NCBI RefSeq assembly: GCF_018729255.1
Contig: NZ_CP076061.1
Coordinates: 1,116,001-1,180,000, forward strand
Length of the DNA stretch: 64,000 bases
Reading direction: 5' to 3'
From: Cupriavidus sp. EM10
GTDB taxonomy: Bacteria; Pseudomonadota; Gammaproteobacteria; Burkholderiales; Burkholderiaceae
Shown here: piece by piece, positions 7,548-23,359 of the stretch
Numbering within the stretch: the stretch's first letter is position 1
Layout: each line of letters starts with the position of its first letter
Notes under the pieces: model-generated
Told to the model about the DNA's origin: nothing
Seen by the model: only the letters and a program-made list of their open reading frames with translations
The model's database searches: none
Made by a program: the position numbers and the translations under genes

Positions 7548-8450
7548 ATGATCATCGACACCAGCTGTTACCCGACCAACCTGGTCGACCTGGCCTGGCG
7601 GCACGACGGCGATCCGTTCACCGGCGAGCGCCTGATCCAGATGATGGACGGACCGTTCACCATCAACGGCAAGCCGCGCCGCATCGACCGCGCCTTTATC
7701 CAGCCGCCGCAGGGCAACACCATCTACACGTACACCGACGGCGTGCAGTCAGGCGCGGAGTCCATCGATTCCTACATGGCGTACACGCGCGAGATGGTGG
7801 CGAAGTACCCCGACCGCTTTATCGGCTGCTTCGTCTACAACCCGCGCTGCGGCGTGGAGAACGGCGTCAACGCGATCGAGCACTACGTGAAGCGGCTCGG
7901 CTTCAAGATGGTCCAGTTCCAGGCCAACATGCATGCCTATCGCCCCGACCGCGCGCTGGACTGGCTGCGCCCGGCGCTGCAGAAATGCGCGGAGCTTGGC
8001 GTACTGGTCAAGCTGCATACCGGCGACGGCCCGTACAGCATCCCCACCGAATGGGTGCCGATGATGAAGGAGTTTCCGACCGTGAACTTCATCATGGCCC
8101 ACTTCGGCGTGCAGACCGGCGGCGTGTACTGCTTCGAGCCGTTCCAGATGGCCATGGACATGCCCAACGTCTATTGCGAATCGGGCTGGTGCCTGCAGTC
8201 GCGCATCGTCGAATTCGCCAAGGTGTTGCCGAAGCACAAGATCCTGTTCGGCTCCGACACGCCGCCCAACGAGCCCGGCATGTGGCTGCGGCTGCTGGAG
8301 GTGCTCTGCTTCGAACCGCCGCAGGGCCTCAATCTCGACGAAGACACGCTCGAGGACTACCTCGGCAACAACGTCGCCCGCATGATCGGCCTGGAGCCGA
8401 CGCCCGTACCGCGCACGCTCGAAGAAGCGAAGGCACGGCTGGCCGCATGA
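7548..8450 (+). CDS. ACMSD-type amidohydrolase paralogue lacking the HxH metal motif
   Basis: About 300 residues of the amidohydrolase-2 family, which includes metal-dependent decarboxylases (ACMSD, gamma-resorcylate decarboxylase) and hydrolases. It is strongly similar along its length to the next gene product. Later metal/active-site residues are present: KLHTGDG (H157), MAHFG (H185) and FGSDTPPNE (D237). The N-terminal HxH that binds the metal is replaced: MIIDTSCYPTN has Ser6 and Tyr8 where the neighbour has His6 and His8. It is therefore probably inactive alone, perhaps a partner subunit, or uses a different chemistry. Start ATG behind AGGGGA. First gene of the set with the paralogue and UbiD. 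Confidence 0.85.
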   Translation: MIIDTSCYPTNLVDLAWRHDGDPFTGERLIQMMDGPFTINGKPRRIDRAFIQPPQGNTIYTYTDGVQSGAESIDSYMAYTREMVAKYPDRFIGCFVYNPRCGVENGVNAIEHYVKRLGFKMVQFQANMHAYRPDRALDWLRPALQKCAELGVLVKLHTGDGPYSIPTEWVPMMKEFPTVNFIMAHFGVQTGGVYCFEPFQMAMDMPNVYCESGWCLQSRIVEFAKVLPKHKILFGSDTPPNEPGMWLRLLEVLCFEPPQGLNLDEDTLEDYLGNNVARMIGLEPTPVPRTLEEAKARLAA

Positions 8451-8490
8451 CGCGGACGACGCAAACGAGATTCCGACGGAGCACACGAAC

Positions 8491-9405
8491 ATGATTATCG
8501 ATACCCACCTGCACCCGACCAACCTCGTCGACGAGGCCTGGCGCCATACCGGCGAGCCGTTCAACGGCGAGCGCATGCTGAAGATGATGGACGGCCCGTA
8601 CATGATCAACGGCAAGCCGCGCCGTATCGACATGGGGTTCATCCAGCCGCCGCCCGGCAACACCGGCTATCGCGACGGCAACCGGCGCGGCCGCGAAGGC
8701 ATCCGCGACTACATGGCCTACGTGGCCAGCCTGTGCCAGAAGTACCCTGACCGCTTTATCGGCAACTTCACGTTCAACCCGCGCTGGGGCCCGGAAGAAG
8801 GCGCGCTGGAGCTGGAATTCCATATCAAGGAATACGGCTTCAAGATGCTGAAGCTCCACGCCAACATGCACGGCTACCGTCCCGACCGCGCGCTGGACTG
8901 GCTGCGCCCGGCGATGAAGGTCTGCGCCAGGTACAACATCGTGGTGCTGATCCACACCGGCGACGGCCCCTACACGATCCCGACGATGTTCTACCCGGTG
9001 ATCCGCGAATTCCCGATGGTCAATTTCATCATCGGGCACTTCGGCATCCAGACCGGCGGCAACTACTCGTTCGAGGCGTTCTGGATGGCCATGGATACGC
9101 CGAACGTGTATTGCGAATCGGGCTGGTGCTTCCAGTCGCGCATCGTCGAGTTCGCCCGGCAGCTGCCGCGCGACAAGATCGTGTTCGGCACCGACACCCC
9201 GCCGAACGAGCCCGGCATGTGGCTGCGCGAGCTTGAGATGCTCTGCGGCCCCGCGCCGCAGGGCATGGATCTGGACGAGGACGGCCTGGAAGACTACATG
9301 GGCAACAACATCGCGCGCCTGGTCGGCATCGAGCCCACCGCCCCGCCGAAGACGCAGGAGGAGGCACAGGCCCGTCTGAAGGATACGTACGCCAGCACGC
9401 GCTAA
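8491..9405 (+). CDS. ACMSD-type amidohydrolase / putative decarboxylase, intact metal site
   Basis: 304 residues, same family and length as the preceding paralogue. The full ligand set is present: MIIDTHLHPTN (H6, H8), LIHTGDGP (H155), IGHFG (H183) and FGTDTPPNEPG (D235). Relatives bind one zinc or manganese ion and either decarboxylate aromatic or heteroaromatic acids without oxidation or hydrolyse ring amides. It lies 40 bases downstream of the first paralogue and 119 before a UbiD-family gene, so they probably share a transcript. Substrate cannot be read from sequence; the surrounding Mo hydroxylase, purine-type permeases and deaminase suggest an N-heterocycle. Confidence 0.88.
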   Translation: MIIDTHLHPTNLVDEAWRHTGEPFNGERMLKMMDGPYMINGKPRRIDMGFIQPPPGNTGYRDGNRRGREGIRDYMAYVASLCQKYPDRFIGNFTFNPRWGPEEGALELEFHIKEYGFKMLKLHANMHGYRPDRALDWLRPAMKVCARYNIVVLIHTGDGPYTIPTMFYPVIREFPMVNFIIGHFGIQTGGNYSFEAFWMAMDTPNVYCESGWCFQSRIVEFARQLPRDKIVFGTDTPPNEPGMWLRELEMLCGPAPQGMDLDEDGLEDYMGNNIARLVGIEPTAPPKTQEEAQARLKDTYASTR

Positions 9406-9524
9406 GGCTTCGGCCGGCGCACCGACCCATCCTTCCCGTCTGGTCACGCGCGGACGCCGCCAACGCGGTGGCGTCCGCGCGCGGCAACGGTTTCCCGTTG
9501 GAAGTTCCCAAGCGGAGCCATGCC

Positions 9525-10943
9525 ATGACTGCAGCAAGCCCGTCCTCGCCGGGGTTCGAACCGAATTTCGACGATACCTCGCAGGACTTTCACACCTTCC
9601 TCGCCGCCTATCGTGCGGCCTTTCCCGACGATGTCCTGACCGTGCGCGAGCCGGTCACCGCCAACCAGGAGCCCACCGCGCTGGTCTGGACGCTGGCCGC
9701 CCACGATCGCCATCCCGTGCTGGTATTCGACGACGTGGCCGGCCTGGGCACGCCGCTGGTCACCAACCTGTTTGCGTCGCGCGAACGCGTGGGCCGCATG
9801 CTGGGCGTGGCGCCTGCCGGCATCCATGCCGAGTACCAGGCGCGTAGCCGCCGGCTGATGACGCCGCGCGTGCTGGAATCGGGCGCCGTGACCGGCATCG
9901 TGGAGGAGCAGGTCGACCTGGCGACGCTGCCTGCGATCCGGCATTTCGCCACCGATCGCGGGCCGTATATCACCAACGCCATCCTGATCGCCGAGGACCG
10001 CGAAGCCGGCTTCGGCAACGCCAGCTATCACCGTTCGATGCTGCACTCGCCCACGGAGATCGCCACCAGCCTGCACTCGCGCGGCCACCTCTGGCGCATG
10101 TACCAGCGCGCCGTGGAACTGGGCAGGCCGCTGCCGGTGGCCATGGTGATCGGCACGCATCCGCTGTTCATGCTGGCCGGCGCGGCGCGCCTGCCGTATG
10201 GCGTGGATGAGCGGCACGTTGCCAGCGGGCTGTTCGGCGCGCCGCTCGAGGTCGTGCGCACGCCGCGCTACGGCATCGCGGTACCGGCGCATGCCGAGAT
10301 CGTGCTCGAAGGGGTGATCGATCCATCTGCGCGCGTCGACGAAGGCCCGTTCGGCGAGTTCACCGGGTATTCGTCGGACCGCTCCACCAACAACCTGCTG
10401 CGCGTGGAAACCGTGATGCGGCGCGCCGACGCCTGGCTGGTGGATGTGGTCGGCGGCAACTCGGCCGAGCACCTGAACCTGGGCCGCATTCCGCGCGAAT
10501 CGGAGATGGTCGAGAAACTGATGGAGCGCTTTCCGTCGGTCACGGCCGTGCACTACCCCAGCTCCGGCACGCACTTCCACGCCTACGTGGCGCTGCGCCA
10601 GTCGCGGCCCGGCGAGGCGCGGCAGGTCATGCTGGGGCTGCTCGGGTGGGACCCGTACCTGAAGACGGTGGTGGCCGTGGATGCCGATGTCGACATCACG
10701 CGCGACGAGCAGGTGTTGTGGGCCATTGCCACGCACCTGCAGCCGCATCTCGATGTGGTGGTGGTCGACGGGCTGCCCGGCAGCGCGCTCGATCCGTCCG
10801 CGTCGGGCGTGGGCACCACGTCGCGCATGGGGCTGGACGCCACGCGCGGGCCGAACTTCGACGGCATCCGTGCGCGTATCGACGACGACGCCATGGCACG
10901 CGCGGCAGCGTTGCTGGCCCGCATCGATACGGGAAAACACTGA
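9525..10943 (+). CDS. UbiD-family prenylated-FMN-dependent decarboxylase
   Basis: About 472 residues. UbiD enzymes reversibly decarboxylate aromatic or unsaturated acids using prenyl-FMN. The acidic part of the E-R-E active site is visible in VDEGPFGEFTGY, where two Glu five residues apart match the catalytic pair; LVDVVGGNSAEHLNLGRIPRE and VVDGLPGSALDPSA are typical of the C-terminal half. Start is the ATG at 9525 behind AGCGGAG, not an earlier in-frame codon at 9468. Cofactor would come from the UbiX encoded at 17453. This is more like catabolic UbiD enzymes than housekeeping ubiquinone UbiD, judging by context rather than phylogeny. Confidence 0.9.
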   Translation: MTAASPSSPGFEPNFDDTSQDFHTFLAAYRAAFPDDVLTVREPVTANQEPTALVWTLAAHDRHPVLVFDDVAGLGTPLVTNLFASRERVGRMLGVAPAGIHAEYQARSRRLMTPRVLESGAVTGIVEEQVDLATLPAIRHFATDRGPYITNAILIAEDREAGFGNASYHRSMLHSPTEIATSLHSRGHLWRMYQRAVELGRPLPVAMVIGTHPLFMLAGAARLPYGVDERHVASGLFGAPLEVVRTPRYGIAVPAHAEIVLEGVIDPSARVDEGPFGEFTGYSSDRSTNNLLRVETVMRRADAWLVDVVGGNSAEHLNLGRIPRESEMVEKLMERFPSVTAVHYPSSGTHFHAYVALRQSRPGEARQVMLGLLGWDPYLKTVVAVDADVDITRDEQVLWAIATHLQPHLDVVVVDGLPGSALDPSASGVGTTSRMGLDATRGPNFDGIRARIDDDAMARAAALLARIDTGKH

Positions 10944-11011
10944 CGCGCGGGTACACCGCTGCAGCAGATACGACGCAAAACACGGCGCCCCGCGGCATTG
11001 ATCGGCTGACC

Positions 11012-11181: not shown

Positions 11182-12573
11182 ATGATTCCCCAATCCACTT
11201 CGCATGGGATCGACGCGGTGCATCCGGTCGATGAAGTCTTGCCCCCGATTCGGCTGGCCGCGCTGGGCCTGCAGCACGTGCTCGTGATGTACGCGGGCGC
11301 GATTGCCGTGCCGCTGATCATCGGTGGCGCGCTCCACCTGCCCAAGGACCAGATCGCCTTCCTGATCGCGGCGGACCTGTTCTGCTGCGGCCTGGTGACG
11401 ATGATCCAGAGCATCGGCATCTGGAAGATCGGCATCCGGCTGCCTGTGATGATGGGCGTCACGTTCACCGCCATTGCGCCGATCATCGCCACCGGCTCGA
11501 ATCCGTCGCTCGGGCTTCCCGCCGTGTTCGGCGCGGTGATGGTGGCCGGCGTGTTCACGTTCGTGGCAGCGCCGTACGTCAGCCGGCTGATCCGCTGGTT
11601 CCCGCCCGTGGTGACCGGCACCGTGGTGCTGGTGATCGGCATCTCGCTGATGCGTGTGGGCGTGAACTGGGCGGCGGGGGGCAACCCCATGCTCAGCACG
11701 CCCACGGGCCCGGTGCCCAACCCCGCCTATGGCCTGCCGGTCAACCTGGGCATCGCCACGGTGGTCCTGCTCACGGTGCTGGGCATGATCGCGTTCTTCA
11801 AGGGCTTCCTGTGCAACATCGCCGTGCTGATCGGCATTACGACAGGCTTCGTGATCGCCGTGGCGCTGGGCAAGGTCAGCTTCGCGGGCGTGCATGCGGC
11901 CGACTGGGTGGCGCTGATCACACCGTTTCACTTCGGGTGGCCCACGTTCGACCTGATGACGTCGATCACGCTGTGCGTGGTGATGGTAGTCATCATGATC
12001 GAGGGCGTGGGCCAGTTCCTGGCGCTGGGCGAGATCGTGGATCGCCCGGTCACGCCTGACGACCTGGCGCGCGGCCTGCGGGCCGACGGCGTGGGCGCGC
12101 TGGTGGGCGCAGTGTTCAACACGTTCACCTATACGTCGTACGCGCAGAACGTCGGGCTGGTTCAGGTCACTGGCGTGCGCAGCCGCTGGGTGTGCGCCAC
12201 GGCCGGCGGCATCCTGATCGTGCTCGGCTGCCTGCCCAAGCTGGCGTTCTTTGCCGCGTCGATCCCGCAATACGTGCTGGGCGGCGCGGCGTTGGTGATG
12301 TTCGGCATGGTGGCGGCCACCGGCGTGCGCATCCTGGGACATGTCGATTTCGTGGAGAACAAGAAAAACGCGTACATCGTGGCGGTCAGCCTGGCGCTGG
12401 GCATGATTCCGCTGGTGGCCGACAAGTTCTTCGCGCAGTTGCCCGATCTGGTGGCCAGGTTCTGCCAGAACGGCATCCTGCTGGGTACGCTGTGCGCGGT
12501 GCTGCTGAACCTGCTGTTCAACGTGCGTGGCGCGGAAGCAGCGCCGCAGATGCTGGCGAAGAAGGTGGCTTGA
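11182..12573 (+). CDS. NCS2-family nucleobase:cation symporter
   Basis: A 463-residue inner-membrane permease with about 12-14 hydrophobic segments, of the family that imports xanthine, urate, uracil or related rings with protons. HPVDEVLPPIRLAALGLQHV is the typical N-terminus; the region around FLALGEIVDRPVT (TM8/TM9 loop) matches the substrate-site area of bacterial xanthine/urate permeases. Start ATG 11182 follows AAGGAG; the frame is open from 11044 but that part is not family-like. It lies between UbiD and the LysR gene and carries the shared upstream element, so it probably imports the substrate of the island. A second copy is at 20595. Confidence 0.92.
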   Translation: MIPQSTSHGIDAVHPVDEVLPPIRLAALGLQHVLVMYAGAIAVPLIIGGALHLPKDQIAFLIAADLFCCGLVTMIQSIGIWKIGIRLPVMMGVTFTAIAPIIATGSNPSLGLPAVFGAVMVAGVFTFVAAPYVSRLIRWFPPVVTGTVVLVIGISLMRVGVNWAAGGNPMLSTPTGPVPNPAYGLPVNLGIATVVLLTVLGMIAFFKGFLCNIAVLIGITTGFVIAVALGKVSFAGVHAADWVALITPFHFGWPTFDLMTSITLCVVMVVIMIEGVGQFLALGEIVDRPVTPDDLARGLRADGVGALVGAVFNTFTYTSYAQNVGLVQVTGVRSRWVCATAGGILIVLGCLPKLAFFAASIPQYVLGGAALVMFGMVAATGVRILGHVDFVENKKNAYIVAVSLALGMIPLVADKFFAQLPDLVARFCQNGILLGTLCAVLLNLLFNVRGAEAAPQMLAKKVA

Positions 12574-12736: not shown

Positions 12737-13648
12737 TCATTTCCCCAGATCACTCCGATGCCGCATTAGCAGGTCCCTGAACGACTGCGCCGGTGGCGAC
12801 AGTGACCGGTCCGCATGTGTCAGCAGCGAGATCTCGCGCGAGATCACCGGGTCTTGCGGCATCACCGCCACCAGGCCCAGCGACGATGTCAGCCGCGTCA
12901 CCGCCGTGCTCATCACCGCGATGCCCAGCCCGGCGTCGACCATGCCGACCATCGTCAGTGGCAGGTACACCTCGTGCACGCGTGCCAGCGAGATACCGCG
13001 CGTGGCCAGTGCCGCATCGAGGCAGTCGCGGATCGGGTTGCCGCGGTGTGGGCCGATCACCGGCAGCTTTGCCACTTCCTCCCAGGTCAGCTCGCGGCGG
13101 CGCGCCAGCGGATGACTGGGCGGCATGACGATCACGAACGCATCCGACGACAGCCGGTGCGCCGCCAGATCGGGCTGGCCTTCCGGGATCGTGCCGATGC
13201 CGAAATCGACTTCGCCCGCGCTGACCATGCGCGGCACTTCGTCCTCGGCCACGTCGTGCAGTTCCACCTTCACGCCCGGATGCCCCACGCAGAACTCGCG
13301 GATAAAGCGCGGCAGCATCAGCGCGGCCTGGATCGACGAGGCGGCAATCGAGACGCGTCCCCGGCCCAGCGTACGCAGGTCCACGGAGCTGTCCAGCACG
13401 CTGTCGATGTCGGCGACGGCCTTCTTCACCATCGGCAGCAGTTCGGCGCCCGCCTGGGTGATCTGCATCAGCCGCGTATGGCGGTCGAACAGCTTGAGCC
13501 CCAGGTTGACTTCGAGTTCGTGGATCAGCGCGCTGATGGACGACTGCGAGAGGCTGAGCTTCTCGGCCGCCCGTGTGAAATGCCGCTCCTCGGCCACGGC
13601 GACAAACGCGCGTAGCTGGCGCAGCGATACGTTCATGTTGCCAGGCAT
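12737..13648 (-). CDS. LysR-family transcriptional regulator
   Basis: About 303 residues. Residues ~5-65 are the LysR winged helix-turn-helix (LRQLRAFVAVAEERHFTRAA, then LSLSQSSISALIHELE), followed by the two-lobed effector domain. It is divergent from the Mo-hydroxylase operon with 156 bp between start codons, the usual place for a LysR that controls its neighbour, and a repeated element found also before the permease gene lies in that gap. Start is ATG 13648 (MPGNMNVS); ATG 13636 is the alternative. The effector is unknown, probably the substrate or an intermediate of the island. Confidence 0.93.
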   Translation of the reverse strand: MPGNMNVSLRQLRAFVAVAEERHFTRAAEKLSLSQSSISALIHELEVNLGLKLFDRHTRLMQITQAGAELLPMVKKAVADIDSVLDSSVDLRTLGRGRVSIAASSIQAALMLPRFIREFCVGHPGVKVELHDVAEDEVPRMVSAGEVDFGIGTIPEGQPDLAAHRLSSDAFVIVMPPSHPLARRRELTWEEVAKLPVIGPHRGNPIRDCLDAALATRGISLARVHEVYLPLTMVGMVDAGLGIAVMSTAVTRLTSSLGLVAVMPQDPVISREISLLTHADRSLSPPAQSFRDLLMRHRSDLGK

Positions 13649-13700: not shown

Positions 13701-13731
13701 CGATCAATAAATCCGGTTGCGGGCATTTACC
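13701..13731. promoter_or_regulatory. Shared regulatory element between LysR gene and Mo-hydroxylase operon
   Basis: CGATCAATAAATCCG-N9-ATTTACC, the twin of the element at 11012-11042. It contains an imperfect dyad (AAATCCG facing CGGGCATTT) of the size bound by LysR proteins. It lies ~75 bp before the first gene of the operon. Confidence 0.5.
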
Positions 13732-13804
13732 GATGATGGCGCACCACCCATCATGGATTCACGGCCAGCGACGCAGGCCAAAGGCACCCCCAAAAGGAGT
13801 CGAC

Positions 13805-14665
13805 ATGAGAGCGTTCGAATACCTCGAACCCGCCACGCTGGCAGAGGCCTCGGCGCTGCTGTATCGCAGCGGTGGACGCGCCAGCGTACTGGCCGGCGGC
13901 ACCGACCTGCTCGTGCAGATCAAGGAATCGCACCGCCAGCCGGCGCAGGTCATCAACATCAAGAAGATCCCCGGCATGGACGTGCTGGCGTTCGATCCGG
14001 CCGAAGGGCTGCGCATCGGCGCGCTGGTCACCACGCGCGAAGCCGAGACCTCGTATGCGGTACGCCGCCACTACGCCAGCCTGGCCCGCGCCGTGACCGA
14101 CTTTGCATCGATCCAGGTACGCAACCGCGCCACGGTGGTCGGCAACGTCTGCCGTGCCTCGCCGTCCGCCGATTCGCTGGCACCGCTGATCGCCGACCGC
14201 GCATCGGTGCACCTGTACGGCCTGCAAGGGTCGCGCGCGATGCTGGTGGAGGACTTCGTCAAGGGGCCCGGCAAGACCGCGCTGGAACCGGACGAGCTGG
14301 TGTCGCGCATCACCATTCCCGCACCGGCGCCGCATACGGGCAAGGCCTACATCAAGCACGGGCGCCGCGTGCAGATGGAACTGGCCACCGTGGGCGTGGC
14401 GGTATCGGTCACCGTGGAACGCGGCCAGTGTGCCGACATCGGCATCGTGCTGGCCGCCGTGGGCCCCACGCCGATCCGCGCGCGCCGCGCCGAGGCCGTG
14501 CTGCGTGGGCATGCGCCCAGCGACGCGCTGGTGCTGCAGGCCGCGCACGCCGCCATGGAGGATGCGCGCCCGATCAGCGACGTGCGCGCCAGCGCCGACT
14601 ATCGCCGCGAAATGGTCAGCGTGCTGACGCGCCGTGCCATCGCCCAAGCCCTGGAGACCCTGTAA
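13805..14665 (+). CDS. Molybdenum hydroxylase, FAD-binding medium subunit
   Basis: 286 residues of the CoxM/XdhB type. It binds the FAD that passes electrons from the Fe-S subunit. The FAD site is seen as VLAGGTDLLVQIKE (residues ~35-48) and the typical RNRATVVGNVCRASPSAD. No extra 4Fe-4S loop of the 4-hydroxybenzoyl-CoA reductase beta subunit is evident, so an ordinary xanthine-oxidase-family dehydrogenase is more likely. Start ATG 13805 lies behind AAAAGGAG. The stop overlaps the next start by one base (TAATG), the first of four tight couplings in this operon. Confidence 0.93.
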   Translation: MRAFEYLEPATLAEASALLYRSGGRASVLAGGTDLLVQIKESHRQPAQVINIKKIPGMDVLAFDPAEGLRIGALVTTREAETSYAVRRHYASLARAVTDFASIQVRNRATVVGNVCRASPSADSLAPLIADRASVHLYGLQGSRAMLVEDFVKGPGKTALEPDELVSRITIPAPAPHTGKAYIKHGRRVQMELATVGVAVSVTVERGQCADIGIVLAAVGPTPIRARRAEAVLRGHAPSDALVLQAAHAAMEDARPISDVRASADYRREMVSVLTRRAIAQALETL

Positions 14666-15174
14666 TGCGCAAATTGATCGAAGTGGACATCAACGGCGAG
14701 CCGCGCGAACTGGCTGTGGAGCCGCACAGCACGCTGCTGGACGCGCTGCGCTACGACGCCGGCCTGACCGGCACCAAGAAGGGCTGCGACGTGGGCGAGT
14801 GTGGCTCGTGCACGATCCTGGTCGACGGCAAGCCGATGAACAGCTGCCTGATGCTGGCCCCCGAAGCCCACGGCTGCAAGATCGTCACGATCGAGGGCAT
14901 CCAGCCCCATGCCGATGCCGTGCATCCGATCCAGGAGCAGTTCATGCGCTGCGGGGCCGCGCAATGCGGCTTCTGCACCCCCGGCTTCGTGGTGGCCGCC
15001 AAGGCGCTGCTCGACGCCAATCCGAATCCCACGCGCGACGAAATCCGCTTTGCCATCGCCGGCAATATCTGCCGCTGCACCGGCTACACCAAGATCGTCG
15101 AGGCCATCGAGCAAACCGCCGAGGACCTGCGCCGCGATCCCCAATGCCACCGCGCACCGGAGACCACACGATGA
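14665..15174 (+). CDS. Molybdenum hydroxylase, [2Fe-2S] small subunit
   Basis: 169 residues with the two iron-sulfur clusters of the xanthine-oxidase family. The N-terminal plant-ferredoxin-type cluster is KKGCDVGECGSCTILVDG plus a later Cys (NSCLM). The C-terminal four-helix cluster is QCGFCTPGF and NICRCTGY. It relays electrons from the Mo site to FAD. It overlaps both neighbours (TAATG before, ATGA after), so the three subunits are made in coupled fashion. The Cys-rich signature makes the assignment certain; the substrate is not indicated. Confidence 0.95.
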   Translation: MRKLIEVDINGEPRELAVEPHSTLLDALRYDAGLTGTKKGCDVGECGSCTILVDGKPMNSCLMLAPEAHGCKIVTIEGIQPHADAVHPIQEQFMRCGAAQCGFCTPGFVVAAKALLDANPNPTRDEIRFAIAGNICRCTGYTKIVEAIEQTAEDLRRDPQCHRAPETTR

Positions 15175-17456
15175 CCCACGCCGTGATCGGACACAGCGTC
15201 AAGCGCACGGACCTGCTCGACAAGGTCACCGGCAACGCAAAGTACGTGGCGGACATGCCGCTGGCCGGGCTGCTGCACGCAAAGATGAAGCGCTGCAACG
15301 TAGCGCACGCGCGCATCCGCCGCATCGACACCGCCGCCGCGCTGGCGCTGCCCGGCGTCAAGGCCATCCTGACCCACGAGAACGTACCGCGCGTGCTGCA
15401 CGCCGGGTCGCCCCATCCGCGCTCGGCCTCGGTCACGTGCGACCAGTACATCCTCGATGACAAGGTGCGCTACTGGGGCGAAGGCGTGGCCGCCGTGGCC
15501 GCCACCAGCGAGGACATCGCCGCGCGTGCCGTCGAGCTGATCGAGGTCGAGTACGAGCCGTTGCCCGCGCTGTTCACCGTCGATGAAGCGGCGGCCCCGG
15601 GCGCCCCGCTGATCCACGACCGCGAGCCGGGCGGTAACCTGGTGCTGCCGCCCGTGCGCATCGAGCGCGGCGATGTCGACAAGGGCTTTGCCGAGGCAGA
15701 CTTCATCCTGGAAGGCGTCTACGAGGGCGGCCGCCCCACGCCGGCCTATATGGAGCCTAACGTGCTGACCTGCAAGTGGGACGGCAACGGCAACCTGACC
15801 GTGTGGATTTCCACGCAAACCGCATTCATGGTGCGCGGCATCATGGCCGAGGTGCTGGGCCTGCCGCTGCACAAGGTGCGCGTGCTGGTGGACCACATGG
15901 GCGGCGGCTTCGGCGCCAAGCAGGACCTGTTCCAGAGCGAATTCCTGTGCGCCCTGCTGGCACGCGAGACGCACCGCCCGGTGCGCATGGAATACACGCG
16001 CGAGGAAACGTTCCTGGGCGGCCGCACCCGCCATCCCGCGCGGGTCTGGCTGCGCCAGGGCTTCCGTAACGACGGCACGATCACGGCGCGGGAGGCCAAG
16101 GTGGTCTTCAACTCGGGGGCCTACGGCTCGCATGGGCCCGGCGTGACCAATGTCGGCACCGCCGCCATGGTGTCGCTGTATCGCTGCGAGAACGTCCGGC
16201 TGGAAGGCCGCTGCGTCTACACCAACAGCCCGATTGCCGGCGCATTCCGCGGCTACGGCGTAGTGCAGACTTACTACGCGCTCGATATCCAGATGGACGA
16301 GGCCGCCGAGCGGCTGGGCATGGACCCCGCCGAGCTGAAGCTCCGGAATGCCGTGCGCGAAGGCGATATCGCGCCGTCGAACCATCCGCTGATCGGGCGC
16401 GGGCTGGAAGCCTGCATTGCCCGGGGCATGGAAGCCGTCGACTGGAAGGCCCGCCGCCTGACCACCCGCCAGCAGCAGGGCGTGATCCGGCGCGGCTGGG
16501 GCGTCGGCTGCGAGATGCACGGCAGCAGCGCCTATCCGGGCATCAAGGAACAGGGCAACGCCATCGTCAAGATGAACGAGGACGGCACGGTGGTACTGCT
16601 GACCGGCGCCGCCGGCCTGGGCACCGGCGCGCACACCGCCCTGGCGCAGATCGTTGCCGAGGAAATGGCGATTCCGTTCGAATCGGTCTCGGTCGTGCAC
16701 GGCGACACCGACGTGGTGCCGTGGGACATCGGCGCCTTTGCCAGCCACACCACCTACATGGTGGGCCGGGCCGCGCAGATGGCGGCCGGCGAGATCAAGA
16801 CGCAACTGCTGGCGCGGGCGGCCAAGCAGATGGAGGCCGAACCCGACGCACTGGACATCGCCGATGGTGTGATCTCGGTGCGCGGCCGCCAGGGTCCGAC
16901 CCTGACGGTGCGCGAGGCCGTGATGCCGCGCAAGGGGCTGCCGGCCGCGCAGTTCGTGGGCACCGCGACCTATCACCCGACCAAGTCGTACTCGTTCGCC
17001 GCGCATTTCGTGGAGGTCGAAGTCGACACCGAGACCGGCTTCGTCACGGTGAAGCAGGTGGTGCCGGTGCACGATATCGGCAAGGTGATCCACCCGGTGG
17101 GGGCGGCGGGCCAGATCGAGGGCGGCATCCAGCAAGGCATCGGCCATACGCTGTACGAGGACTACCAGATCGACATGCAGACGGGCCGGTCGCTGAACGC
17201 CAACTTTGTCGACTACAAGATGCCGCTGGCGATGGACATGCCGGAGATCCGCACGATCCTGCTCGAAGCCGCACCCGACCCCGGCGGCCCGTTCGGCGCC
17301 AAGGGCGTGGGCGAAGACCCCATTGTCGCCATCGGCCCGGCCATCGCCAACGCGGTGTTCGACGCCATCGGGGTGCGCTTCCGGCACTATCCGATCAAGC
17401 CCGAACAGGTGCTCCAGGCATTGGCCGCCAGGCGCGCAGCGGAGGCCCGGCCATGA
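15171..17456 (+). CDS. Molybdenum hydroxylase, molybdopterin-binding large subunit
   Basis: 761 residues. The catalytic subunit carries the Mo-pterin cofactor and hydroxylates a carbon, usually next to a ring nitrogen, with water as oxygen source. Seen: an N-terminal a/b-hammerhead domain (VTGNAKYVADMPL); GGGFGAKQDLFQSEF, AFRGYGVVQTYY and GAAGLGTGAHTALAQI of the cofactor site; and GGPFGAKGVGEDP near the end, whose Glu matches the catalytic base. Length fits three-subunit enzymes such as nicotinate, isoquinoline or xanthine dehydrogenase relatives. Starts with ATGA overlap on the Fe-S subunit and ends with ATGA overlap on ubiX. Substrate unknown. Confidence 0.93.
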   Translation: MTHAVIGHSVKRTDLLDKVTGNAKYVADMPLAGLLHAKMKRCNVAHARIRRIDTAAALALPGVKAILTHENVPRVLHAGSPHPRSASVTCDQYILDDKVRYWGEGVAAVAATSEDIAARAVELIEVEYEPLPALFTVDEAAAPGAPLIHDREPGGNLVLPPVRIERGDVDKGFAEADFILEGVYEGGRPTPAYMEPNVLTCKWDGNGNLTVWISTQTAFMVRGIMAEVLGLPLHKVRVLVDHMGGGFGAKQDLFQSEFLCALLARETHRPVRMEYTREETFLGGRTRHPARVWLRQGFRNDGTITAREAKVVFNSGAYGSHGPGVTNVGTAAMVSLYRCENVRLEGRCVYTNSPIAGAFRGYGVVQTYYALDIQMDEAAERLGMDPAELKLRNAVREGDIAPSNHPLIGRGLEACIARGMEAVDWKARRLTTRQQQGVIRRGWGVGCEMHGSSAYPGIKEQGNAIVKMNEDGTVVLLTGAAGLGTGAHTALAQIVAEEMAIPFESVSVVHGDTDVVPWDIGAFASHTTYMVGRAAQMAAGEIKTQLLARAAKQMEAEPDALDIADGVISVRGRQGPTLTVREAVMPRKGLPAAQFVGTATYHPTKSYSFAAHFVEVEVDTETGFVTVKQVVPVHDIGKVIHPVGAAGQIEGGIQQGIGHTLYEDYQIDMQTGRSLNANFVDYKMPLAMDMPEIRTILLEAAPDPGGPFGAKGVGEDPIVAIGPAIANAVFDAIGVRFRHYPIKPEQVLQALAARRAAEARP

Positions 17457-18079
17457 GCGCGTCACGTCGGCTGGTGGTGGCCATCACCGGCGCCAGCGGC
17501 GCGGCGTACGGCGTGCGGCTGCTGCAGGCGATGGGCACGGCCGACGGCTGGGAGACGCACCTGGTCTGCTCGCCGTCCGGCCTGCTGACCGTGCACCACG
17601 AGCTGGGCCTGCAACGCCGCGACGTCGAGGCGCTGGCCGACGTGGTGCACAACGTGCGCGACATCGGCGCCAGCGTGGCCAGCGGATCGTTCCGCTGCGA
17701 CGGCATGGTCATCGCGCCGTGCTCGATGCGCACGCTGGCTGCGGTGGCCACCGGCATGGCCGACAACCTGGTGACCCGCGCCGCCGACGTCATGCTCAAG
17801 GAGCGCCGCCGGCTGGTGCTGCTGGCACGCGAGACGCCGCTGCACCTGGTGCACCTGCGCAACATGACGACGGTGACGGAGATGGGCGCCATCGTGATGC
17901 CGCCGGTGCCGGCTTTCTATACCCATCCACAGAGCGTCGACGACATCGTGGGCCACACGGTCGGCCGCGTGCTGGACCTGTTCGGCGTCGAGCACGCCGG
18001 TCTGGTGGCGCGCTGGTCCGGCATGCGGCCGGCGCTTGCCGCAGTGCATTCCGATATCACACCCAGGGAGACCCCATGA
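17453..18079 (+). CDS. ubiX: Flavin prenyltransferase (UbiX/Pad1 family)
   Basis: 208 residues. UbiX prenylates FMN to make the cofactor of UbiD enzymes. Motifs seen: ITGASGAAYGVRLL (FMN phosphate loop), MVIAPCSMRTLAAVATG, and RETPLHLVHLRNM followed by MPPVPAFY, all typical. Its stop and start overlap the Mo-subunit gene and the CobW gene by ATGA, so prenyl-FMN supply is wired into the Mo-hydroxylase operon, while its client UbiD is encoded 7 kb upstream at 9525. This suggests a dedicated pathway copy; the housekeeping ubiX would lie elsewhere. Confident in function, less so in exclusive service to the nearby UbiD. Confidence 0.9.
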   Translation: MSASRRLVVAITGASGAAYGVRLLQAMGTADGWETHLVCSPSGLLTVHHELGLQRRDVEALADVVHNVRDIGASVASGSFRCDGMVIAPCSMRTLAAVATGMADNLVTRAADVMLKERRRLVLLARETPLHLVHLRNMTTVTEMGAIVMPPVPAFYTHPQSVDDIVGHTVGRVLDLFGVEHAGLVARWSGMRPALAAVHSDITPRETP

Positions 18080-19179
18080 CCGAAGCCCAACGCCACCTGC
18101 CGCAGCTGCCGCCTGTTCCCGTCACGATCCTGACGGGCTTCCTTGGCGCCGGCAAGACCACGCTGCTCAACCACATCCTGACGCAGAAGCACGGGCATCG
18201 CATCGCGGTGATCGAGAACGAGTTCGGCGAGGTCGATGTCGACTCGGACCTCGTGCTGACGTCCGACGAAGAGATCTACCAGATGACCAACGGCTGCATC
18301 TGTTGCGTGGTCGACGTGCGGACCGACCTGGTGCGCATCCTGCAGAAGCTGCTGGAACGGCCCGAGCGGTTCGACCATATTCTTGTGGAAACCAGCGGTC
18401 TGGCCGATCCCACGCCGGTGGCGGCCACGTTTTTCATGGACAACGACGTGGCGAAGCAGGTCACGCTGGACGGCATCCTGACGCTGGTCGACGCCGTGCA
18501 TATCGAGGACCATCTCGACGACCCAAAGCTGTCGGGCTTCGACAACCAGGCCGTGGACCAGATCGTGGCCGCCGACCGCATCATCCTGAACAAGACGGAC
18601 CTGGTCTCCGGCGCGCGGCTCGATGCGCTGACGCACCGGCTGCAGCACCTGAACGAAGGCGCGCAGATCCTGCGGTCGAACTACGCGCAGGTGGACCTGT
18701 CGCGCATTCTCGGCATCGGCGGCTTCACGCCGGGGATGGCCCAGTTGCCGGAGGACGCGCACGACCACGGGCACGGCGGACACCACCACGCCGGGAACGA
18801 TCCGGATCACTTATGCGACGAACTGTGCGACCACGCCCATGACGACGATGAACACGCTCACCGGCACGATCCCTCGGTGACGTCGGTTTCCCTGCTGTTC
18901 GACACGCCATTCGACCGCCAGCGGCTGGAGCACGCGCTGCGGGCGCTGCTGGCGGCGCAGGGCGACGACGTGTTCCGCATGAAGGGCATCGTCGCCGTGC
19001 AGGACGACGACCGCCGCCATGTGCTGCAGGCCGTGCACCGGCTGATGGACTTCCATCCGGCCGACGCCTGGGGCGATACGCCGCGCGAAAGCAAGTTTGT
19101 GTTCATCGGCCGCAATCTTGATCGCGCTCGGCTGCAGACGCTGCTGCGCGTGTGCCAGCCGGCGCAGGTGGCGGCCTAG
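18076..19179 (+). CDS. CobW/COG0523 GTPase with His-rich metal-binding stretch
   Basis: 367 residues, a P-loop GTPase of the metallochaperone family. Walker A is GFLGAGKTT (from residue 21), followed by ENEFGEVDVD, the family metal motif GCICC (Cys 74, 76, 77), and NKTD (172-175). Residues ~229-264 are packed with His, Asp and two Cys, typical of zinc- or cobalt-handling members. A CobW C-terminal domain follows. Last gene of the coupled operon and ended by a strong terminator. Since the cluster encodes three metal-dependent amidohydrolases, delivering their metal is a plausible role (inference); Mo-enzyme assembly is less likely for this family. Confidence 0.9.
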   Translation: MTEAQRHLPQLPPVPVTILTGFLGAGKTTLLNHILTQKHGHRIAVIENEFGEVDVDSDLVLTSDEEIYQMTNGCICCVVDVRTDLVRILQKLLERPERFDHILVETSGLADPTPVAATFFMDNDVAKQVTLDGILTLVDAVHIEDHLDDPKLSGFDNQAVDQIVAADRIILNKTDLVSGARLDALTHRLQHLNEGAQILRSNYAQVDLSRILGIGGFTPGMAQLPEDAHDHGHGGHHHAGNDPDHLCDELCDHAHDDDEHAHRHDPSVTSVSLLFDTPFDRQRLEHALRALLAAQGDDVFRMKGIVAVQDDDRRHVLQAVHRLMDFHPADAWGDTPRESKFVFIGRNLDRARLQTLLRVCQPAQVAA

Positions 19180-19432: not shown

Positions 19433-20281
19433 CTACCGCCCCCGCAGCGTCGCCGACGGCGACTCCCCAAACTCCTTGCGATACTCCCGCGCGAACAGGC
19501 TCAGGTGCGTAAAGCCGTTGCGCAGCGCGATCTCCGACACCACGCCCGGGCCCGGTGTGGCATGCTGCAGCGCCTCGCGGGCGCCGTGCAGACGCAGCAG
19601 GCGCAGGTATTCCATCGGCGTGATGTTCTTGCTCTTGCGAAAGCCGAGTTGCAACGTGCGCTCGCACACGCCGCAGTGCGCAGCCAGCGCTTGCATCGTC
19701 ACCGGTTTGTCGAGATTCGCGCGCAGGTAGCGGATCGCGCAGCGCACGTAGGGCGGCAGCGACGGCAGGTAGCCGCGCGGCAGCAGGCGGCCGTCCGCGC
19801 CGAAATGGTCGGCCAGCAGCGTGGTCAGGAACAGTTGCTCGATGGCGCCGTCGGCTGCCGGCAGGCCGGGACCGTCCGCGCCCATCGCTGCTTCCGTGCG
19901 CAGCCAGCTCATCATGGCCCGCCAGCGGCCGGACAGCTGCGCGTCCGCCAACGGCTGCATGGCGAACATCAGCGGCGCGGGCGCATCGAAGTTGAAGCAG
20001 TCGCGGAACGCCTCTTCCAGCGCCTGGCGTCGCACGATGACGCTGAAGCGTTCGCAATCGGCGTCCAGCAGCAGGCGCACCGGCAGCGACGGCGAGAACA
20101 CCCAGGTCTCGCCGGGCGCCATCTCGCGCGTCATGCCGTCCCACGCCACGCGGCAGCCGCCCGACAGCACGGTCTGCACCACGTATTGATCCTTGCCCGG
20201 CTGCGGCTCCACCTCCATGGCCTGGGCATAGCGCGTGGTGGCCAGCGTGAGGTGGCCGATCTGGCAGCTCTGCAACTGCAC
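19433..20281 (-). CDS. AraC-family transcriptional regulator
   Basis: About 282 residues. The N-terminal half is a cupin-like sensor of the AraC-binding type (GETWVFSPSLPVRLLLDADCERFSV). The C-terminal ~100 residues hold the two helix-turn-helix motifs (MQALAAHCGVCERTLQLGFRK, then the VSEIALRNGFTHLSLFAREYRKEFG signature in two parts). The first usable start in frame is GTG 20281. It is divergent from the second NCS2 permease gene and its deaminase partner, which it probably controls. A pair of TGGTGCAG repeats 20 bp apart lies between. Effector unknown. Confidence 0.92.
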   Translation of the reverse strand: MQLQSCQIGHLTLATTRYAQAMEVEPQPGKDQYVVQTVLSGGCRVAWDGMTREMAPGETWVFSPSLPVRLLLDADCERFSVIVRRQALEEAFRDCFNFDAPAPLMFAMQPLADAQLSGRWRAMMSWLRTEAAMGADGPGLPAADGAIEQLFLTTLLADHFGADGRLLPRGYLPSLPPYVRCAIRYLRANLDKPVTMQALAAHCGVCERTLQLGFRKSKNITPMEYLRLLRLHGAREALQHATPGPGVVSEIALRNGFTHLSLFAREYRKEFGESPSATLRGR

Positions 20282-20385: not shown

Positions 20386-20413
20386 TGGTGCAGCGTGTTG
20401 AACCATGGTGCAG
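20386..20413. promoter_or_regulatory. Direct repeats TGGTGCAG, candidate AraC-type operator
   Basis: TGGTGCAG occurs at 20386-20393 and again at 20406-20413, 20 bp (two helical turns) apart, in the 313-bp gap between the divergent AraC gene and the NCS2 permease gene. AraC proteins commonly bind direct half-sites at about this spacing. Nothing else is recognised in that gap. Confidence 0.4.
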
Positions 20414-20594
20414 AAAACCTGGGAAGGGCGGGGGTCGGTGTCGTCATCGTGGGAGCCTTGCAGGTTCCGTGCAAGCTGTGGAAAACCCCTGCGCTTTCGC
20501 TTCCGTGCGCGCCCGTTCGCAATGTTGCTACGCACGGCGCCCCGTACCCGCTACCTTGGCTGCGAACCCACACGAAAAAGGCAGGAGAGCCGCC

Positions 20595-21964
20595 ATGACC
20601 ACCCCGTCCACCCCGTCGACCAGGTGCTGCCCGCGCGGGCCATGGTCTCGCTTGGCTTCCAGCACATGCTGGTGAGCTACCTTGGCGCGATTGCCGTGCC
20701 GATGATCGTCGCGGGCGCGCTGAAGATGACGCCCGCTCAGACCACGCTGCTGATCAGCACGGCACTCTTTACCTCCGGCATCGCCACGCTGCTGCAGACC
20801 GTCGGCTTCTGGAAGTTCGGCGTGCGACTGCCGCTGATGCAGGGCGTGGCCTTCGGCTCGGTGGGTCCGGTGATCGCCATCGGCACCGATCCGTCGCTGG
20901 GCTTTACCGGCGTCTGCGGCGCGGTGATCGGCGCCGGCGTGGTGACGATGTTCCTGGCCCCCGTGATCGGCCGGCTCAAGCGCTTCTTTCCGCCCGTGGT
21001 CAGCGGCTGCATCATCACTTCGGTGGGCCTGTCGCTGTTTCCGGTGGCCTACCAGTGGGCCGGCGGCGGGCATGGCGCCAAGGACTTCGGCTCGCCGATG
21101 TTCTTCATCGTCGCGTTCGGCACCGTGGCGCTGATCCTCTTTATCAACAGCCATGGCGGCCGGCTGGTGCGCAGCCTGGCCGTGCTGATCGGCCTGATGG
21201 TGGGCGGCGCGGCGGCGTGGCTGCTGGGCATGGGCAACTTCGAGGAAGTCGCCCGCGCGCCGTGGTTCACGATGGTGACGCCGTTCGCGTTCGGCATGCC
21301 CACGTTCAACGCCGGCGCCATCGTCACGATGGTGATCGTGATGGTGGTGCAGATGGTGGAGTCGATGGGGCTGTTCGTGGCCATCGGCGATATCGTCAAG
21401 CGCCCGGTGTCCGAGCGAGAAGCCACCTGCGGCCTGCGCGCCAACGGCCTGGCCAGCGCCATTGGCGGATGCTTCGCGGCGTTTCCGTTCATCGCATTCA
21501 TGGAGAACGTGGGCCTGGTGATCGTGACCGGCGTGCGCAGCCGCTGGGTGGTGGCCGTCTGCGGGCTCATGCTTTGCGTGGTGGCGCTGGTACCGAAGAT
21601 CGGCGCCCTGTTCTCGTCGATCCCCGCCGCCGCGCTGGGCGGCGCCACCATCGTGATGTTCGGCGTGGTGGTGGCAGCCGGCATCCGCACGCTGGGGCAG
21701 GTCGACTATGAGCGCAAGCCGGCCAACCTCAGCGTGGTGGCCATCACGCTGGCCTGCGCGCTGATGCCGGTCATCATGCCGAACCTGCTGGAAAAGCTGC
21801 CGTCGGCGCTGCAACCGTTCGTCCATAGCAGCGTGATCATCTCGTGCGTGGTCTCGGTGTTCCTGAACCTGATCCTGAACGGCATCCCGGCGCGCGACGA
21901 GGAAGACGCACACGCCCCGGTAGCCGCACCCTCCGCCGCCGCATCCCCTGTCTCCGAGACCTGA
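20595..21964 (+). CDS. NCS2-family nucleobase:cation symporter, second copy (one-base frameshift at start)
   Basis: About 456 residues once repaired, a polytopic purine/pyrimidine permease similar to the one at 11182. The ATG at 20595 follows CAGGAGAG and reads MTTP, but the conserved N-terminal HPVDQVLPARAMVSLGFQHM is in the next frame. One extra C in the CCCC run at 20602-20605 joins them as MTTPVHPVDQVLP, matching HPVDEVLP of the first copy. In-frame ATG 20642 has no clear ribosome site and loses this motif. The MVESMGLFVAIGDIVKRPVS segment marks the family's central loop. It lies 3 bases before a deaminase gene, implying uptake of that enzyme's substrate. Confidence 0.88.
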
Positions 21965-21967
21965 GCC

Positions 21968-23359
21968 ATGACCCAACAAGCCCAATTTGGTCAGCCCACC
22001 CTGATCCGCAACGCCGCCGCCGTGATGACCGGCCGCGCCGGTGCCGCCGCCCGTGCCGGCGCGGTCGATATCCGCATCCGCGATGGCCACGTGGCCGAAC
22101 TGGCGGCCGGCCTGCAGCCGCAGCCCGGCGAGACCGTGATCGATGCCAGCGGCTGCGTGGTCTATCCGGGCTGGGTCAACACCCATCACCACCTGTTCCA
22201 GAACCTGCTCAAGGCGGTGCCGGCCGGCATCAACGCCGATCTGCAGGAATGGCTGGCCAGCGTGCCCTATCCCCGGCTGGACCGCTTCACGCCCGAGATT
22301 TTCCGTACCGCCGTGCGGCTGGGCATGGCCGAGCTGCTGCTGTCGGGCACCACCACCTGCGCCGACCACCACTACCTGTACCACCACGGCCACGGCGCGG
22401 AGACCGGCGACGTGCTGTTCGACGTGGCGCAGGAATTCGGCATGCGGCTGGTGCTGTGCCGGGGCGGCGCCGTGCAGTCGAAATCCGATCATCCCGGCAT
22501 GCGCGCCACGGCCCTGGTGCCCGAGACGCTCGACGAGATGCTGGCCGACATCGAGCGGCTCAAGTCGCGCTACCACGACGCCGGCCCCGACGCGCTGCGC
22601 CGCGTGGTGGTGGCGCCGACCACGCCCACGTTCTCGCTGCCGCCCGTGCTGCTGCGCGAGGTGGCAGGCTTCGCGCGCGGCATGCAGCTGCGGCTGCACA
22701 GCCATCTGTCCGAGACCGACAACTACGTGCGCTTCTGCGCCGAGAAATACCGCTGCACGCCCGTGCAGTTCGTGGCGGACCACGACTGGCTGGGCCCCGA
22801 TGTCTGGTTTGCCCACCTGGTCACCGTCACGCCCGACGAAATCCGCATGCTGGGCCAGACCGGTACCGGCATGGCCCACTGCCCCGTCAGCAACGCGCGG
22901 CTGGGCAGCGGCATCGCGCCCGTGCGCGCCATGGCCGACGCCGGCGTGCCGGTATCGATCGGCGTGGATGGCGTGGCGTCGAACGAATCGGGCAGCATGG
23001 TGCACGAGGCCAATTTCGCGTGGCTGGTGCACCGGGCGCTGGGCGGCGCGGCCCAGACGCGGGTCGAGGAAGTGATCCACTGGGGTACGGCGGGCGGCGC
23101 GCAGGTGCTGGGCTTGCCTGGGGTGGGCACGCTGGCGCCGGGGCAGTCGGCGGACCTGGCGATCTACGATGTCGGCGGCCTGCGCTTTGCCGGCTTCCAT
23201 GACATCGCCACGGCGCCGGTGGCGGCCGGCGAGCCCACGCCGGTGCGCGACGTGTTCGTGCGCGGCCGGCATGTGGTGGAAGGCGGTGCCATCGTCGGGC
23301 TGGATATCGAACAGCTGCGCCGCGACGCGCAGGCGGCGCTGAGGACGCTGCTGCCCTGA
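21968..23359 (+). CDS. Guanine-type / 8-oxoguanine deaminase-like amidohydrolase
   Basis: 463 residues of the cytosine-deaminase-like amidohydrolase subfamily; the sequence resembles characterised 8-oxoguanine deaminase (Pseudomonas PA0142 type) from memory. It would hydrolyse an exocyclic ring amine to a carbonyl plus ammonia in the cytoplasm. Metal ligands: VNTHHHLFQ (H73, H75), LHSHLSET (H246), FAHLV (H283) and IGVDGVASNE (D334); E249 is the likely proton shuttle. It starts three bases after the permease stop, so both are one operon under the AraC protein. The real substrate may be a related N-heterocycle or aminotriazine; family placement is firm, exact substrate is not. Confidence 0.85.
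   Translation: MTQQAQFGQPTLIRNAAAVMTGRAGAAARAGAVDIRIRDGHVAELAAGLQPQPGETVIDASGCVVYPGWVNTHHHLFQNLLKAVPAGINADLQEWLASVPYPRLDRFTPEIFRTAVRLGMAELLLSGTTTCADHHYLYHHGHGAETGDVLFDVAQEFGMRLVLCRGGAVQSKSDHPGMRATALVPETLDEMLADIERLKSRYHDAGPDALRRVVVAPTTPTFSLPPVLLREVAGFARGMQLRLHSHLSETDNYVRFCAEKYRCTPVQFVADHDWLGPDVWFAHLVTVTPDEIRMLGQTGTGMAHCPVSNARLGSGIAPVRAMADAGVPVSIGVDGVASNESGSMVHEANFAWLVHRALGGAAQTRVEEVIHWGTAGGAQVLGLPGVGTLAPGQSADLAIYDVGGLRFAGFHDIATAPVAAGEPTPVRDVFVRGRHVVEGGAIVGLDIEQLRRDAQAALRTLLP

Follow-up and report, generated by a model that had tools for sequence, protein, structure and literature searches.

The window analysed here, 64,000 nucleotides from contig 2 of a 6.66 Mb genome whose closest named relatives are Cupriavidus, carries at positions 7548 to 23359 an island of genes for which we tentatively propose, from the protein families and their conservation, a role in pteridine (pterin) catabolism ending in xanthine. 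The pteridine nature of the substrate is more secure in this proposal than the order of the steps. The island encodes two paralogous amidohydrolases (A1 and A2), a UbiD-family decarboxylase and its partner UbiX, a three-subunit molybdenum (Mo) hydroxylase (M, S and L), a CobW-type GTPase, two NCS2 permeases (a and b) and a deaminase, and it probably lets soil bacteria feed on pterins such as folate remains and insect pigments.

The pathway that we infer would run as follows. The NCS2 permeases would import oxidised pterins (isoxanthopterin, leucopterin or pterin-6-carboxylate), and the deaminase would swap the 2-amino group for oxygen, thereby bringing pterin to the lumazine level. The Mo hydroxylase would oxidise the pyrazine carbons C6 and C7 to give 2,4,6,7-tetraoxypteridine; leucopterin would need deamination alone before the ring contraction, and isoxanthopterin deamination plus one hydroxylation. 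A2, with zinc or another metal possibly provided by CobW, would act together with the metal-less A1, the metal-bound hydroxide attacking the vicinal dicarbonyl and the six-membered ring being contracted to xanthine-8-carboxylate (EC 5.5.1.3). This imidazole-2-type carboxylate would be converted into xanthine by UbiD with the prenyl-FMN from UbiX, and a separate xanthine dehydrogenase (XDH) and the urate route would complete the breakdown. The strength of the scheme is that four enzymes would match four steps. The initial annotation had envisaged a carboxylated N-heterocycle that was purine-, pyrimidine-, pyrazine- or pteridine-like; pteridine is the best of these four options, and the carboxylate would more likely be the intermediate xanthine-8-carboxylate than a feature of the starting substrate.

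With regard to the ring contraction, McNutt and Damle reportedly described a tetrahydroxypteridine cycloisomerase from Alcaligenes in 1964. This is the activity proposed here for A1/A2, and its product, xanthine-8-carboxylate, would feed UbiD. EC 5.5.1.3 stands, ranked 'difficult', in the available part of a published list of orphan activities (PMC1940265), and no later gene assignment for it was found in the open-access literature. It is worth noting that tetrahydroxypteridine and xanthine-8-carboxylate, which have equal mass, are given as two assignments of one ion in the available part of another report (PMC5941619). That A1/A2 are the gene pair behind this orphan activity, and UbiD the first prenyl-FMN purine-8-carboxylate decarboxylase, is the more doubtful part of our proposal.

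Grouping of the deaminase with pterin-type enzymes

The last gene of the island (21968-23359, + strand) had been described as 8-oxoguanine-deaminase-like, a description that had to be revised because its product is closer to isoxanthopterin deaminase. First, it scores 788 bits with the PRK12393 model (cut-off 543; labelled 'amidohydrolase family protein', with no substrate in the name), as compared to 433 bits with the PRK08203 8-oxoguanine deaminase model (cut-off 532). Second, its best solved relative is 2PAJ (E 4e-141), which we take to be the isoxanthopterin / pterin-6-carboxylate deaminase reportedly studied by Hall et al. in 2010, ahead of 3HPA (E 1e-83), presumably the representative of the 8-oxoguanine deaminases. 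Third, the island deaminases and the 2PAJ clade split from the 3HPA group at 100/100 (36 versus 3 rows) in a tree of 39 selected rows (each free of stops and with at least 390 aligned residues), in which 2PAJ and 3HPA stand as aligned stretches only, and five forks of which are open. On these three grounds an 8-oxoguanine deaminase was rejected. The 2PAJ clade falls between two island deaminase clades with moderate support (92/87 and 94/89, the other island clade having 85/66), and the 2PAJ orthologs adjoin the deaminases of the Oxalobacteraceae/Variovorax islands (94/89). The island enzyme thus groups with the isoxanthopterin / pterin-6-carboxylate deaminase and is predicted to be pterin-type. 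According to the available part of one study, Sargasso Sea members of this family deaminate both isoxanthopterin and pterin-6-carboxylate (PMC5270733).

Apart from the islands, a 2PAJ ortholog (83%) lies with ABC transporter and Rieske oxygenase genes in locus L109 (3585-8814), and 2PAJ-like deaminases (46-63% to 2PAJ) are grouped with genes for ABC transporters and a 2OG-Fe(II) oxygenase in L099 (13929-16365), L100 (9354-14410), L101 (9464-13341) and L125 (2606-8406). All five loci are devoid of A1/A2/UbiD, and such combinations of a 2PAJ-like deaminase, a transporter and an oxygenase possibly represent a second pterin-using gene set.

Co-occurrence and layout of the island genes across genomes

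A2 occurs in 64 of the 299 genomes of the family, and its distribution closely follows that of the deaminase ortholog, both genes being present in 61 genomes, A2 only in 3, the deaminase only in none and neither in 235. The deaminase ortholog class (at least 66% identity, E <= 1e-200) was set after seeing the gap to the next full-length matches at 55%, and the Fisher value of 1.5e-60 was obtained from counts that ignore relatedness. Fifty-eight of the 61 A2-deaminase pairs lie on one contig, 4.5 to 15.8 kb apart. Similarly, in a sample of 40 genomes of the genus (23 with A2, 17 without), UbiD was found in 23/23 A2-bearing and 0/17 A2-less genomes, and the Mo subunit L in 20/23 and 1/17, respectively. 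On counts uncorrected for relatedness, the association of A2, deaminase and UbiD is far above chance. The A2-less genome G332 retains fragments of A2, NCS2b and the deaminase in a stretch of 1.1 kb (L115, 5444-6539), an island relic which suggests that the island was lost as a unit. Samples from the whole phylum (island in 4/398 genomes), the order (4/250) and the family of genome G002 (A2 in 2 of 5) were too sparse, so no statistics were drawn from them.

A second set of loci was taken from an A2 scan with one genome per species, as the best 80 of 241 confirmed matches; this choice under-represents distant islands and islands devoid of A2, and 63 of the 80 loci span at least 20 kb. A1, A2 and UbiD occur together in 80/80 loci; CobW accompanies them in 77, UbiX in 72, an NCS2 or BMP transporter likewise in 72, a Mo large subunit of either type in 68 and the deaminase in 54. 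Some of the contigs are cut off early; among the 63 long loci, a Mo enzyme is present in 58 and the deaminase in 45, and 12 of the 18 long loci that lack the latter are of the Cupriavidus type, with the layout of the window, which places the deaminase outside the 10 kb flank (L020, L024, L027, L030, L073 and L080 make up the remaining six). The constancy of A1/A2/UbiD, together with the variability of the deaminase and Mo enzyme, suggests that A1/A2 and UbiD catalyse consecutive steps. A tblastn search of plasmids with A2 matched 126 records, 92 of which cover at least 80% of A2.

Organisms amenable to laboratory work also carry the island, namely Paraburkholderia fungorum, strains of Cupriavidus necator and, on its pSymB, Sinorhizobium meliloti 1021. 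The layout of the island varies. A single run of A1-A2-UbiD-UbiX-CobW-NCS2b-deaminase is found in Marinobacterium and in many Paraburkholderia, Caballeronia, Burkholderia, Ralstonia and Pseudomonas, a different, two-subunit Mo enzyme lying a few kb off on the other strand. Herminiimonas and Janthinobacterium have UbiX-CobW-ABC transporter-deaminase-A1-A2-UbiD, followed by M-S-L on the other strand, and two other Burkholderiales genomes (L119 and L120) have A1-A2-UbiD-M-S-L in one run. Plasmids of Ensifer and Shinella pack together a BMP transporter, a cytosine-deaminase-type amidohydrolase, an aldolase, NCS2, M-S-L, CobW, A1, A2, UbiD, UbiX and XdhC. Further versions occur in Paracoccus, Ponticoccus, Caballeronia NK8 and S. 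meliloti pSymB.

These data bear on the initial proposal of a single pathway made of three blocks, namely A1-A2-UbiD (block 1), the Mo operon (block 2) and NCS2b-deaminase (block 3). This proposal survives: the blocks co-occur across genomes, and elsewhere a single run unites block 1 with block 3 or with block 2, or all parts are packed together. The blocks are not perfectly locked to one another, many islands having another Mo enzyme. Three A2-bearing genomes have no Mo L (G322, G358 and G395, with A2 in L021, L019 and L023, respectively, and no Mo enzyme near the island). Conversely, in the A2-less genome G366 a 2PAJ-like deaminase gene (56% to 2PAJ, with a stop inside its frame) is followed by a porin gene and then by M-S-L (85-93%), and is preceded by ABC transporter and 2OG-Fe(II) oxygenase genes, an arrangement which points to an independent link of this hydroxylase with this deaminase type. 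G366, as a Mo operon without A1/A2/UbiD, also fits the idea that block 3 would serve oxidised-purine (8-oxoguanine) salvage and that blocks 1 and 2 would be unrelated aromatic-acid genes, linked to it by proximity only; so does the fact that in the window NCS2b and the deaminase form their own unit with their own divergent regulator. However, this idea does not account for the single runs in other genera, for a deaminase outside the 3HPA group or for the presence of UbiX, the partner of UbiD, inside the Mo operon. It is largely refuted by the 61/3/0/235 distribution, and we regard it as highly improbable.

The A1/A2 amidohydrolase pair

A1 (7548-8450, + strand; Pfam PF04909, 122 bits) and A2 (8491-9405, + strand; Pfam Amidohydro_2, 162 bits) are paralogs sharing about 65% identity. 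A2 is about 80-99% conserved across genera and retains a complete ACMSD-type metal site (HxH, third and fourth His, Asp), its ligands H6, H8, H155, H183 and D235 being invariant in 85/85 sequences. In A1, S-C-Y replaces the metal-binding H-x-H, with S6 and Y8 invariant in 83/83 sequences, and on strand 4 Gln stands in place of a conserved Lys and His. The initial annotation had suggested that such amidohydrolases decarboxylate or open rings. For A1, an independent ring-opening activity of its own is unlikely because its HxH motif is missing throughout, and it is probably a partner subunit devoid of a metal site.

The AlphaFold model of A2 (pLDDT 79, pTM 0.85), a metal-dependent amidohydrolase of the ACMSD/LigW/IDCase fold, best matches 5-carboxyvanillate decarboxylase, LigJ hydratase, ACMSD and iso-orotate decarboxylase (IDCase). 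With the solved Amidohydro_2 members the sequence match reaches only E 6e-7, and island A1/A2 differ from ACMSD, 5-carboxyvanillate decarboxylase and iso-orotate decarboxylase in forming their own pair with a metal-site-less partner. These nearest folds, mostly decarboxylases and including IDCase, which acts on a pyrimidine carboxylate, raise the alternative that A2 itself could be a decarboxylase (like LigW, IDCase and ACMSD) of a heteroaromatic carboxylate, UbiD taking a second carboxylate from a dicarboxylated N-heterocycle. Against it, the same fold neighbourhood comprises the LigJ hydratase and LigY, which we take to be a hydrolase, so that the fold does not fix the reaction; neither VIA-align nor Foldseek told decarboxylase, hydratase and hydrolase apart. 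Furthermore, we know of no obvious natural dicarboxylated substrate that would also need a 2-amino deaminase. A decarboxylating A2 thus appears distinctly unlikely.

UbiD, Mo hydroxylase and permeases

UbiD (9525-10943, + strand, with an alternative upstream start at 9468) belongs to the prenyl-FMN decarboxylase family, as indicated by its TIGR00148 score (271 bits, cut-off 245), by the UbiX partner in the island (17453-18079, + strand; PF02441, 153 bits; relatives annotated UbiX) and by what we take to be the catalytic Glu/Arg motifs of UbiD, EGP[FY]GE in 97/97 records and NxS[YF]HR in 95/97. The 97 UbiD records, like the 28 Mo L records considered below, include some loci from one same genome. 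Its best solved relatives are 6h6x (E 1e-65) and 6h6v, which correspond to HmfF, an enzyme of furan-carboxylate (furan-2-carboxylate / furan-dicarboxylate), and then 7p9q (AnInD). Island UbiD shares the family and catalytic motifs of these enzymes, and its similarity to them is only moderate. By analogy, a five-membered-ring 2-carboxylate being chemically near to xanthine-8-carboxylate, the latter is a candidate UbiD substrate.

Similarly to E. coli XdhABC, the Mo hydroxylase is built of three subunits, i.e. the FAD subunit M (13805-14665; PF00941 and PF03450), the 2Fe-2S subunit S (14665-15174) and the molybdenum subunit L (15171-17456), all on the + strand. S was assigned by its translation, inside the frame 13717-15174, and by its position; it is kept between M and L in related loci, and its relatives are annotated (2Fe-2S)-binding protein. 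The MoCoBD and FAD domains of L and M place the enzyme among the xanthine-oxidase-type Mo hydroxylases, as does GAKG[VI]GE, presumably their catalytic Glu motif, in 28/28 L records. The best model for L is XdhA, yet L stays under every XDH equivalog cut-off shown (674 bits for 780 with XdhA, 651 for 916 and 334 for 849.5). In 28/28 records it reads GGGFGAKQ and retains AFRG[YF]G, the first motif being GGGFGGKE in two XDHs from the family; we take these residues to be the substrate-binding Glu (Gln in the island) and Arg of purine hydroxylases. Housekeeping purine catabolism was rejected as the role of the island, since a different contig of the genome carries a canonical XDH and the XDH cut-offs are not reached by the island Mo enzyme.

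In many islands the three-subunit type is replaced by Mo2, a divergent two-subunit Mo enzyme (L085 14279-16942, L040 4027-6832 and similar) with the motif GGSFG[AS]RE in 46/46 records, a non-orthologous replacement at the proposed hydroxylation step.

Both permeases belong to the xanthine-permease subfamily of NCS2 (TIGR03173, cut-off 414). NCS2a (540 bits) lies on the + strand at about 11182-12573, with an uncertain start in an open reading frame (ORF) beginning at 11044, and NCS2b (467 bits) on the same strand at about 20405-21964, its conserved part starting at about 20597. Such permeases would suit any purine-like base, as would the BMP-type ABC transporters of other islands and the Tsx-like nucleoside channel gene found after the deaminase in L126 (17966-18916; 27.0 bits for a Pfam cut-off of 27.2). 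They are therefore compatible with a 7-deazapurine pathway, in which UbiD would decarboxylate 7-carboxy-7-deazaguanine or preQ0-type bases, the Mo enzyme would hydroxylate C8, and deamination and lactam opening by A1/A2 would follow; the relatives of UbiD do include indole- and furan-carboxylate enzymes. Nevertheless, the characterised relatives of the deaminase act on pterins and no queuosine/deazaguanine gene was seen among the annotated or scanned flanking genes, which leaves this pathway very unlikely.

Purine exit or pterin-6-carboxylate

In four loci from outside the family, the neighbours of the island appear to encode steps leading from urate to central metabolism. L119 carries genes for allantoinase PuuE, OHCU decarboxylase and allantoate amidohydrolase, plus a member of the HIU-hydrolase family whose gene stops 1.4 kb short of A1. 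Glyoxylate carboligase is encoded beside the other three islands (L120, L081 and L044), each time with a LysR gene; L120 also has an HIU-hydrolase gene (71% to its L119 counterpart; 84.7 bits, cut-off 87.45), and L081 one for tartronate-semialdehyde reductase, its three genes standing immediately in front of A1-A2-UbiD. Two other matches of this flank screen were left uncounted, the 34% AllC-like gene of L053 and the HIU hydrolase of L113. In L044 a RES/Xre toxin-antitoxin pair (2204-3735) lies between the glyoxylate carboligase/LysR genes and A1.

A purine exit is what separates our proposal from a pathway starting from folate remains, in which imported pterin-6-carboxylate would be deaminated to lumazine-6-carboxylate and oxidised at C7 by the Mo hydroxylase, UbiD would remove the 6-carboxylate early and A1/A2 would hydrolyse the pyrazine ring to a diaminouracil-type product, not xanthine. 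An aromatic carboxylate is the natural target of UbiD/UbiX. The available parts of the literature moreover indicate that 2PAJ-type enzymes also accept pterin-6-carboxylate (PMC5270733), that a folate-grown isolate accumulated lumazine-6-carboxylate (PMC5919439), and that the latter has been named as a candidate folate-degradation intermediate (PMC9513972). However, the available part of the last study also states that lumazine-6-carboxylate was not detected in Variovorax F1 cultures (PMC9513972), the purine-degradation flanks favour a purine exit, and A1/A2/UbiD are constant in 80/80 loci (with a distant UbiD copy in two Rhodoplanes) whereas the deaminase and Mo enzyme vary. We consider this pathway unlikely.

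Points against the pteridine-to-xanthine proposal

Several observations weigh against the proposed catabolism of pteridines to xanthine. First, the evidence from outside the island for pteridines comes mainly from the deaminase group, and there the island enzymes are not orthologs of 2PAJ: they are 47-52% identical to it in most islands and 52-58% in the Oxalobacteraceae/Variovorax type, and they stand as a separate clade, while four true 2PAJ orthologs (69-85%) occur in other loci, without A1/A2/UbiD. Second, a cytosine-deaminase-type enzyme replaces the deaminase in five alphaproteobacterial islands, and the A2-bearing genomes G380, G472 and G476 have no full deaminase ortholog (a fragment in G476). 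Third, in two Rhodoplanes islands the UbiD is only a 40-41% match, located a few kb off, and a deaminase is missing from the surrounding 10 kb, and the stretches fetched for L119 and L120 show neither deaminase nor UbiX. Fourth, the fold of A2 speaks for decarboxylases no less than for hydrolases. Fifth, a match over the XDH cut-off was found in 80/80 genomes tested (64 A2-bearing and 16 A2-less; here on another contig), so the presence of XDH does not discriminate and was dropped as evidence of a xanthine exit. Sixth, purine-gene flanks occur in only 4/121 records, two of which (L119 and L120) are the sources of the queries, and the island-less L113 likewise has an HIU hydrolase (40%), there in the vicinity of an 8-oxoguanine-type deaminase. 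As about one such neighbour is expected by chance (a rough estimate) and queries were self-derived, the flanks support the purine exit without proving it.

Organisation of the island in the window

Domain scans and translations bore out the gene families named in the initial annotation, and no unrelated gene was seen between 7548 and 23359. The recount gave eleven catabolic, transport and maturation genes with two regulators, one gene more than the ten and two first reported. The regulators, both on the - strand, are a LysR-type protein (12737-13648; Pfam HTH_1 and LysR_substrate) divergent from the Mo operon, and an AraC-type protein (19433-20281), classified by reading its translation only, whose position is kept in several Cupriavidus loci. 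The CobW-type GTPase (18076-19179, + strand; PF02492, 190 bits, and PF07683) is a probable metal chaperone. Overlaps of one to four bases join M, S, L, UbiX and CobW (four bases between L and UbiX), and 3 bases separate NCS2b from the deaminase; the island thus seems to comprise three transcription units. As UbiX, the partner of the block 1 enzyme UbiD, lies in the Mo operon, one transcription unit mixes the two blocks.

Within the window no tRNA gene was found, and Rfam gave no match at gathering score in the island region. A phage arrival of the island was rejected, since a scan of viral contigs gave no relative.

Relation to known systems and significance

In agreement with the initial annotation, which knew of no characterised pathway with this gene set, we found no described cluster of this kind in the open-access literature on pterin/pteridine degradation, the activities and the gene combination, subscription papers being mostly uncovered. 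The closest case is the degradation of folic acid by Variovorax sp. F1, where carboxypeptidase G and pterin deaminase would represent the upper part of a like catabolism; in the available part of that study genes are described only down to deaminopteroic acid, and no A1/A2/UbiD/Mo genes are described (PMC9513972). The same text places the F1 pterin deaminase near predicted cytosine and creatine amidases (PMC9513972), a likeness compatible with the cytosine-deaminase-type enzymes of some islands.

The component families are all known; what appears new within the literature searched is the gene combination, the proposed reactions and the A1/A2 pair, whose metal-less member is conserved. Pteridine rings are supplied by folates, biopterins, molybdopterin remains and the pigments of insects and fish. 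Their degradation is old biochemistry, but no genes were described below the deamination step in the literature searched, and for these missing steps, one of which carries an orphan EC number, the island supplies candidates. If our proposal is true, A1/A2 would be a heteromeric catabolic amidohydrolase that contracts a pteridine ring to a purine, with a metal-site-less subunit kept from alpha- to gammaproteobacteria, and a prenyl-FMN enzyme would decarboxylate a purine. The route would convert pterins to purines, an outcome opposite to that of the GTP-to-pterin ring expansion.

Neighbouring and accessory genes

The flanks of the island in the window are unrelated to it. Upstream, a sulfatase (5262-7232), an FGE-type sulfatase-modifying enzyme (4217-5254) and an NlpA-type lipoprotein (3439-4224) are encoded on the - strand (3439-7232); downstream are a LuxR-type regulator and acyl-CoA/PrpD-type genes.

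In many Paraburkholderia, Caballeronia and Burkholderia islands, an arylmalonate-decarboxylase-like gene of the Asp/Glu racemase family follows the deaminase or CobW (e.g. L040, 17147-17878), and such a query matched 31/121 records. The Ensifer and Shinella islands contain a class II aldolase family gene (PRK06486; L102 8363-9151 and L103 8334-9134) that has no place in the scheme. On the Shinella plasmid, Tn3 and IS256 transposase genes adjoin the island (L103, 22127-32457), which may indicate a route of its spread.

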